Shown in pieces: positions 9,981 to 12,320 of a stretch of 39,191 bases of DNA; position 1 is the stretch's first letter; every line of letters begins with the position of its first letter. Both the position numbers and the translations under genes were made by a program. The notes under the pieces are model-generated. The model was given only the letters and a program-made list of their open reading frames with translations. It had not been told where the DNA came from and did not search any database. Source of the stretch: a virus; the IMG/VR virus record IMGVR_UViG_3300038309_000019, positions 1 to 39,191 of that record. One strand, given 5' to 3'.

Positions 9981-10169
9981 ATGCCATGTATTAAATGCTC
10001 AAATGGGAAGTGGAAATATGGTATGCGTGGTAGTTGTATCTATCCAACACGTAAGAAATGTGTTGAAGCCGCAGCTGCTATTCATGCCCAACAGAATAGA
10101 AAAGACAAAGTAGACAAGATTGTTGAATTAGTGTTAACACAAAAGGAGGATAAATGTTTCCCGACTTAA
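9981..10169 (+). CDS. Small Cys-containing phage protein, 62 aa
   Basis: A 62-residue protein with C3-x2-C6, C19 and C27, in the pattern PCIKCSNGKWKYG...GSC-IYPTRKKC-EAAAAIHAQ. The same YG-x2-G-x-C layout recurs in small phage proteins of unknown role and may bind zinc. AAAGGA precedes ATG 9981. It overlaps the next gene by 16 bases. No function assigned. Confidence 0.7.
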   Translation: MPCIKCSNGKWKYGMRGSCIYPTRKKCVEAAAAIHAQQNRKDKVDKIVELVLTQKEDKCFPT

Positions 10170-10366
10170 GACAAGAGAAAGCTGAAGAAATGGCAAGAGA
10201 TATACAATACGAACAGGATATGCGAAGTGACTCTGACTTCTTTCTGGAGCAGGTAAATATGGATATTCAGTTTGAGGATTGTCTACAAGAGTTCATCTCC
10301 TATTGTAAACGATATGACCGTAATCCAAGATTGGAACTTGAGAATATCGTAGATATGTTGACATAA
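10154..10366 (+). CDS. Acidic hypothetical protein, 70 aa
   Basis: A strongly acidic, probably helical 70-residue protein with no recognised family. ATG 10154 is preceded by an excellent AAAGGAGG site embedded in the previous gene. It is followed eleven bases later by the unusual start of the PIN-PhoH gene. Confidence 0.7.
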   Translation: MFPDLRQEKAEEMARDIQYEQDMRSDSDFFLEQVNMDIQFEDCLQEFISYCKRYDRNPRLELENIVDMLT

Positions 10367-10376
10367 AGGATTTATA

Positions 10377-11627
10377 ATTAGTAAGATAGTAATAGATACA
10401 AATGTATTATTAAATAATCCTGAGATCTTAGCTGATGAGTCAATCCATGCAGTAATACCTTATACAGTACTTCATGAGATTGATGGCTTAAAGAAAGATC
10501 CTGATCTTCGTAGGACCGCACAAACAGTTATTAAATACCTGTACCAAGGTCTTAAAAATAAAACTGTGGAAATTGTGGATATTCCACAAGAGAAACAGAC
10601 ACCAGATGAAAAGATTGTCCAAGCAGCAGCAGAACGTGATATACCAATTCTTACTGGTGATATTGGAGCAATGGCAATTGCGTATGCTTCGGGGGTTCCT
10701 ATCCTCGAGACGGAGGAATTGAATCCAGTTAGTGATCCTAACTACACTGGTTATGTCGAAGTATCTGGCGATCTAGACTATGATACACATTGGATTTCGG
10801 ATAAATCAAGACAACTTGTAGAATTCGAAGAGAAGTTTGATGTCTCTCTACAAGAGAATGAGTATGCCATTGTATATAGATTAGCTGAGAATATTGATAT
10901 CTGGGTTAGAAAGGGAGATTCAGTACTTAGAGTTCCTAAGAGTTCTAAGCCTTTTCGGGATGCTGGCATTCTTGTGGATCCTCTTGACGCAATTCAAGCA
11001 TGTGCATTAGACGCCGTATTTGACGCATCAGTACCACTAACAATCCTAGAAGGTGCTATTGGTAGTGGTAAGACAATCCTATCTTTATGCGGTGCTCTAG
11101 CTTGTGTTAGAGGACAGAAACGATTTAAAAGTTATCATAAAATTCTTGTAACACGCCCTAACATTGCAGCAGATCAGCGACTAGCTCTTGGTTTCCGTCC
11201 GGGAGAAGTTGAGAATAAATTTGGTGAATGGTTAGGTGGGATCATTTCAAACTTGAAATTCCTATATGAGCGCACTGATGCAGATCGTGAAGATGAGGCT
11301 GCAAAGAAAATCTTTGATGAATACTTTGAAATGTTACCATTGGAAACAATCCAAGGTGTTTCATTGCACGATTCAATCGTATTAGTAGATGAATACCAAC
11401 TACTAGACAACAATATTATGAAGATGGTGATATCGAGAATCGCAACAGGATCTAAAATCGTACTAATTGGTGATCCATATGATCAAACATATGGTATTAA
11501 CAGGGGTAGAGAAGGTTTTAGAAAGCTTCATGAGAAATTAGGATCTAGTCACTTGATGAACTATGTGCGCTTAGATAAGATTTACAGATCTGATCTTGCT
11601 AACTTTGTCAATGAAATCTATAAATAA
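10377..11627 (+). CDS. phoH: PIN domain-PhoH-like ATPase, apparent ATT start
   Basis: A 416-aa PhoH2-type fusion of an N-terminal PIN ribonuclease domain (acidic residues D7, E34, D77, D95) and a C-terminal PhoH NTPase (Walker A GAIGSGKT at about 226-233, Walker B IVLVDE at about 334-339). Such proteins act on RNA. The frame carrying the PIN domain has no ATG, GTG or TTG between the stop at 10359 and residue 64 (GTG 10566). Starting at 10566 would delete the first PIN strands. AAAGGA at 10365-10370 lies six bases before ATT 10377, the spacing used elsewhere here, so ATT (or ATA 10374) is the likely start. A mutation or sequencing error is the alternative. Confidence 0.85.
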   Translation: MSKIVIDTNVLLNNPEILADESIHAVIPYTVLHEIDGLKKDPDLRRTAQTVIKYLYQGLKNKTVEIVDIPQEKQTPDEKIVQAAAERDIPILTGDIGAMAIAYASGVPILETEELNPVSDPNYTGYVEVSGDLDYDTHWISDKSRQLVEFEEKFDVSLQENEYAIVYRLAENIDIWVRKGDSVLRVPKSSKPFRDAGILVDPLDAIQACALDAVFDASVPLTILEGAIGSGKTILSLCGALACVRGQKRFKSYHKILVTRPNIAADQRLALGFRPGEVENKFGEWLGGIISNLKFLYERTDADREDEAAKKIFDEYFEMLPLETIQGVSLHDSIVLVDEYQLLDNNIMKMVISRIATGSKIVLIGDPYDQTYGINRGREGFRKLHEKLGSSHLMNYVRLDKIYRSDLANFVNEIYK

Positions 11628-11636
11628 AGGAAATAT

Positions 11637-12320
11637 ATGACATACCTAGATCTATACAAGACAGACCCACAAATCCGTAGAGATATTATTGAAGATGGTA
11701 TTATCATTACTACAGTTGATGATAGAGATATTCTATCATTTTATCTAACAGATCAAGTTGAAAGACCGAGTTGGTACACTAACTTTGCTCAACTATCCTC
11801 AGAACTAACAGAAAATGATATTATTGAGATTATTCTAGTAACTCCCGGTGGTTATTTCGATGGTGGCAATCTTATTATTTCGGCAATGAATGCGTCACCA
11901 GCACAAGTTGTTGGGGTTATTCTTGGGGAGGTTGCAAGCATGGGAACACTTATAGCACTTAAATGTGATCAATTGATTATTGAACCTCAAGCTGAATTTA
12001 TGATTCACAATCCTAGTTACGGATATTCTGGTAAGCACCAAGAAGTTGAGGCCCATGTAACCTTTACCACAAAACAGCAGAAAAAGATGATGCAAGATAG
12101 CTATAAATATTTCCTAACCAAAAAGGAAATTAAAAGAGTCCTTAGGGGTGGTGATATTTGGCTAGATGCTTCTGAAATCTCTGCTAGATGGGATAATGTA
12201 TTAGCTGAGCGTAAAAAACTTGCCGATGCTGAACAGGCAGAGCAACTAGTATTAACTATTGATGCCTATAAAGAAGGTATTGCTAGTCTTGAAGCTCAAC
12301 TAAAAGCTCTACAAAAGTAG
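11637..12320 (+). CDS. ClpP-like serine protease
   Basis: A 227-aa ClpP/crotonase-fold peptidase. The triad is visible: S101 in EVASMGT, H124 in FMIHNP, D173 in GGDIWLDASE. The oxyanion loop TPGGYFDGG is near residues 69-77. After the catalytic core, a Glu/Lys/Leu-rich helix extends the C-terminus. It lies in the replication block, far from the head genes, and is not fused to a scaffold, so a prohead-protease role is unlikely. It may degrade host or phage regulatory proteins, perhaps with a host Clp ATPase; the partner is unknown. AAAGGA precedes ATG 11637. Confidence 0.8.
   Translation: MTYLDLYKTDPQIRRDIIEDGIIITTVDDRDILSFYLTDQVERPSWYTNFAQLSSELTENDIIEIILVTPGGYFDGGNLIISAMNASPAQVVGVILGEVASMGTLIALKCDQLIIEPQAEFMIHNPSYGYSGKHQEVEAHVTFTTKQQKKMMQDSYKYFLTKKEIKRVLRGGDIWLDASEISARWDNVLAERKKLADAEQAEQLVLTIDAYKEGIASLEAQLKALQK

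Follow-up and report, generated by a model that had tools for sequence, protein, structure and literature searches.

A possible AUU start codon for the PIN-PhoH gene of an uncultured phage

The IMG/VR virus record IMGVR_UViG_3300038309_000019 comes from an uncultured phage, and the window analysed here covers all 39,191 bases of it. No near relative of the whole window was found among phage genomes. The best protein identities are 37-39%, observed for PolA against Pectobacterium phages (e.g., Arno152 and Possum) and for NrdA against Pseudomonas phage hairong and others. Given these values and the lack of a near relative, the record stands for a group of phages not sampled so far.

The PIN-PhoH gene shares an operon with the NrdA, NrdB, and ClpP genes (Table 1). 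Its frame is open from 10362, directly after a TGA at 10359-10361, up to the TAA at 11625-11627. From 10355, the letters of the plus strand are ATGTTGACATAAAGGATTTATAATTAGTAAGATAGTAATAGATACA. Within 10355-10400, ATG TTG and a single A are followed by CAT, from which the PIN-PhoH frame runs through AAA GGA, TTT, ATA, and ATT to GAT ACA. The other 49 open reading frames listed as genes all have ATG, GTG, or TTG (49 of 49). The acidic protein encoded immediately upstream of PIN-PhoH had no match in family searches. A basic protein of 62 residues, MPCIKCSNGKWKYG..., is encoded at 9981-10169 and weakly matches PHROG 31267 (unknown function). PhoH is also found near ClpP in Vibrio phage RYC (L003).

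Table 1. Features of the PIN-PhoH locus and its surroundings.
Feature	Coordinates	Strand	Basis or remark
Acidic gene upstream, 70 residues, pI 4.2, strong Shine-Dalgarno	10154..10366	+	Stop overlaps PhoH Shine-Dalgarno
Shine-Dalgarno AAAGGA, overlapping the upstream gene's TAA (10364-10366)	10365..10370	+	Motif recurrence in window
ATA, sole other suitably placed near-cognate in-frame codon	10374..10376	+	Too close, 3 bases from Shine-Dalgarno
Putative PIN-PhoH start codon ATT	10377..10379	+	Shine-Dalgarno spacing, homologue starts, structure model
PIN-PhoH gene, 416 residues, PHROG 2765	10377..11627	+	PHROG and Pfam matches
PIN (RNase) domain, acidic residues D7, E34, D77, D95	10386..10697	+	Pfam PIN_4 3e-14; alignment
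First conventional in-frame start, GTG, no Shine-Dalgarno	10566..10568	+	Would remove D7, N9, E34 of PIN site
PhoH ATPase (RNA helicase) domain	10986..11621	+	Pfam PhoH 4e-28; Foldseek PhoH2 structure 3b85 E 7e-11
ClpP-like protease gene, downstream of PIN-PhoH; TAAAGGA junction with ATG	11637..12320	+	Homology

The match to PHROG 2765 (E 4e-72) aligns residues 3-414 of the query with 3-441 of 443, and identity to homologues is just 24-30%. The four acidic residues of the PIN domain are invariant in 21 aligned proteins, and the Walker A motif GxxGxGKT is conserved in the ATPase domain. An AlphaFold model has a mean pLDDT of 80.5, and its N-terminal part is a PIN fold. In Foldseek searches, the ATPase part matched PhoH2, whereas the PIN part matched PIN domains, e.g., 3ix7 and Shigella VapC. 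The NCBIfam PhoH2 model NF053827 matched just the ATPase half, and its score of 110 bits is far short of the cut-off of 680. Judged from these matches, the protein is PhoH2-like but outside the curated PhoH2 equivalog. The predicted product is most likely a complete RNase domain joined to an RNA helicase ATPase, as in PhoH2.

The initial annotation held that this frame has no ATG, GTG, or TTG between the stop at 10359 and GTG 10566, and reading the frame bears this out. Given the phage's codon usage, 68 codons without a start codon have a P of about 0.08. The gap itself is thus unremarkable, and the case is made by the coding signal upstream of the GTG together with PIN homology beginning at the ATT. 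The 63 codons of 10377-10565 score 0.317 bits per codon in the PIN-PhoH frame, where the 5th, 50th, and 95th percentiles of true genes of the phage are 0.13, 0.31 (median 0.310), and 0.47. The other five frames of this stretch have negative codon scores and contain stops. Residues D7, T8, N9, and E34, each encoded ahead of GTG 10566, do not vary across 21 homologues of just 24-29% identity, which rules out that homologues lack the PIN residues. In the AlphaFold model, the first beta strand comprises residues 2-6 (pLDDT ~89), right after the ATT codon. From codon usage, PIN residues, and the structure model, the region before GTG 10566 is translated. The coding signal and the PIN homology also sustain the earlier view that a complete PIN domain needs translation from about 10377. 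Gene finders restricted to ATG, GTG, and TTG would trim the PIN domain off PIN-PhoH.

Coding from about 10377, the lack of a conventional start, and the overlap of the Shine-Dalgarno sequence with the upstream stop are all read directly from the DNA. The AAGGA of this motif pairs with the 3' end of 16S rRNA. At 20 other AAAGGA sites in the window, the distance to the following ATG is 5-8 bases, with 5 and 6 the commonest values, and AAAGGA is the standard Shine-Dalgarno sequence of the phage. The spacing from AAAGGA 10365-10370 to ATT 10377 is 6 bases, in agreement with the annotated likeness to AAAGGA-ATG pairs elsewhere. Three TAAAGGA junctions are alike in build, leading from 9969 to ATG 9981, from 11625 to ATG 11637, and from 10364 to ATT 10377. 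Homologues start 5-9 codons before the DTN motif, mostly 5-7, and ATT 10377 lies six codons before it. In two homologues of T4 type (L026 and L036, MSK-x-x-x-DTN), ATG-Ser-Lys aligns with the ATT-Ser-Lys-Ile-Val-Ile-DTN of the window. The position of a start codon therefore belongs to the ATT, based on Shine-Dalgarno spacing, homologue starts, and the neighbouring junctions. That ATT 10377 alone is correctly placed for both the Shine-Dalgarno sequence and the homologues' start is well supported. The coding signal, the PIN site, and a first strand at residue 2 likewise place the start almost certainly at 10377. RNA structure at the start is nothing special (z 0.27). An internal promoter at the junction was considered and rejected: the boxes TTGACA 10358 and TATAAT 10373 are perfect, but they are just 9 bases apart. 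Promoter-like sites at a permitted spacing number 15, against 14.0 expected by chance, which is no excess. An ATG at 10377 would retain the TATAAT box (TATAATG).

Whether an ATT is used there is a separate matter, and the comparison of start codons proposed in the initial annotation, made with distant homologues, gave it no support. Among 60 distinct homologues with the PIN region, a simple rule (ATG, GTG, or TTG 3-12 codons before DTN) assigned ATG to 47, TTG to 9, and GTG to 1, i.e., a conventional start nearby in 57 of 60. The remaining three probably start further upstream, and none of the 60 supports an ATT start. Close relatives were sought via PhoH, PolA, and NrdB in viral contigs and via PhoH in genome contigs. 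DNA patterns from the start region and from Walker B were also used, and 25 kb were compared with phage genomes by megablast; none of these searches returned a close relative. No second copy of the PIN-PhoH locus was found in the collections searched, and the ATT is known from a single metagenomic record.

An ATG at 10377 in the working phage would explain this pattern. T 10379 would then be an assembly base error or a private, mildly harmful mutation. A T for a G at this position is the single base between ATT and ATG, at the exact expected place, and ATG is used at all 20 other AAAGGA start sites. True AUG-to-AUU switches are also rare, with 1 in 61,358 ancestral AUG starts, or about 1.6e-5 per start (PMC5622118). 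Residual assembly error is of a similar order, so the priors for a real ATT and for an error are close. Against an error, the window shows no further damage: each of the 49 other ORFs listed is open and has a usable start. Base errors that persist into the consensus of a 39-kb contig are, moreover, uncommon. An ATG in the working phage is a serious possibility, though a doubtful one. On balance, T 10379 is inferred to be genuine, and a real, working ATT start is cautiously favored.

The other explanations accept the DNA as it stands and differ in where or how translation begins. ATA 10374, one codon before the ATT, is near-cognate and in frame and lies seven residues before DTN, as the start does in Vibrio phage RYC. 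It is, however, just 3 bases from AAAGGA, where all other AAAGGA starts in the window are at 5-8, and initiation there is very unlikely. A real, working start at one or the other of ATT and ATA is reasonably probable. PhoH could instead be made from GTG 10566 or later with an incomplete PIN domain, since this GTG is the first conventional in-frame start and free-standing PhoH proteins are known (PHROG 170). The missing Shine-Dalgarno sequence, the upstream coding signal, and the PIN catalytic residues encoded there leave such a start extremely improbable, and it was rejected. A +1 frameshift near the stop, fusing the gene at 10154-10366 to PhoH, would suit the PhoH frame, which is +1 to the upstream gene; reading would enter at TTG ACA TAA. 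No known slippery site is present, though, a good Shine-Dalgarno sequence follows the stop, and no aligned PIN-PhoH protein has such an N-terminal extension. A fusion of this kind was rejected as exceedingly unlikely.

With initiation at AUU 10377, the initiator tRNA would pair imperfectly with the codon and initiation would be weak. A good Shine-Dalgarno sequence, AAAGGA at 6 bases, would make it possible. Since the upstream stop overlaps this sequence, termination brings ribosomes to a point about 10 bases upstream of the ATT, and ribosomes finishing the 70-residue gene may thus help to initiate at AUU through coupling. PIN-PhoH output would then be a small fraction of that of its neighbours NrdB and ClpP. 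Low-level production of PIN-PhoH from AUU 10377, aided by the Shine-Dalgarno sequence and the upstream ribosomes, is somewhat probable. In S. aureus reporters grown in poor medium, AUU and AUA starts gave about 10% of AUG (PMC13009471). IF3 discriminates against start codons of the AUU/AUA type (PMC5472188), and its inhibition of re-initiation is milder where an upstream Shine-Dalgarno sequence exists (PMC2268962). Known AUU/AUA starts of S. aureus carry extended Shine-Dalgarno sequences (PMC13009471), and the ordinary strength of the one at PIN-PhoH was counted against the AUU reading, as was the unremarkable RNA structure at its start.

A low dose has a possible reason. PhoH2, itself an RNase-helicase, has been called a toxin and is co-transcribed with a small partner, PhoAT (PMC7390352), and cyanophage yield was limited by a host PIN-PhoH operon (PMC5490813). 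A lytic phage might keep PIN-PhoH scarce via AUU, with the dose tracking host IF3 and translation of the upstream acidic protein, a possible antitoxin; this extended scheme is improbable. The window gene resembles PhoH2 and other PIN-PhoH proteins (mycobacterial PhoAT-PhoH2, PHROG 2765, and PhoH of T4-type phages) in domain order, PIN acidic residues, and Walker A, in an ATPase part like the solved 3b85, and in its full-length PHROG match. It differs in its ATT start and its low identity. As in PhoAT-PhoH2, a small gene lies upstream in the same operon (PMC7390352). By analogy, the 70-residue protein is a tentative candidate for a PhoAT-like partner.

Known genes with AUU starts include infC, pcnB, and staphylococcal cvfC1. 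In the window, a conventional start is absent and coding begins at an ATT after a Shine-Dalgarno sequence; PIN-PhoH possibly joins this class of near-cognate starts. E. coli infC, encoding IF3, likewise has its AUU after a Shine-Dalgarno sequence. There, the AUU completes a feedback loop, IF3 itself being the product, whereas PhoH has no known role in start selection. As PhoH is not an initiation factor, the autoregulatory logic of infC does not transfer, and the response of PhoH to IF3 or initiation fidelity suggested in the initial annotation would be an analogy with infC. A closer likeness of role is to E. coli pcnB and S. aureus cvfC1, ccpN, and infC, where a near-cognate start limits an RNA-acting or regulatory protein, as it may limit yield here. 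The starts of those genes are experimentally confirmed, and those of cvfC1 and ccpN are conserved among relatives and have extended Shine-Dalgarno sequences, whereas the window offers one record and an ordinary Shine-Dalgarno sequence. If T 10379 is real, this would be an AUU-started gene in a phage, of which a narrow search of open-access literature returned no example. It would also be a simple case of dose control by start-codon choice, for an RNase that may be toxic and whose operon is uniform in other respects. If T 10379 is an error, the value is one corrected gene model.

Viral contigs were scanned with the pattern SD-N4..8-ATN-(NNN)-AAR-N9-DTN. True PIN-PhoH genes gave just ATG starts, except for three from IMG/VR (L043, L058, and L086; e.g., L086 2457-2500) that read AATAAAGGAGTGAATATTTTGAAAAAAG, with an ATT and then a TTG. 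The adjoining TTG is the likelier start, and these were rejected as ATT starts. Another candidate, L096, lies inside a longer ORF and was likewise rejected. Six bacteria of the Silvanigrella group (L106, L111, L112, L114, L117, and L118) have only TTG near the start. Together with the TTG of the three IMG/VR genes, this suggests that weak starts may recur among PIN-PhoH genes.
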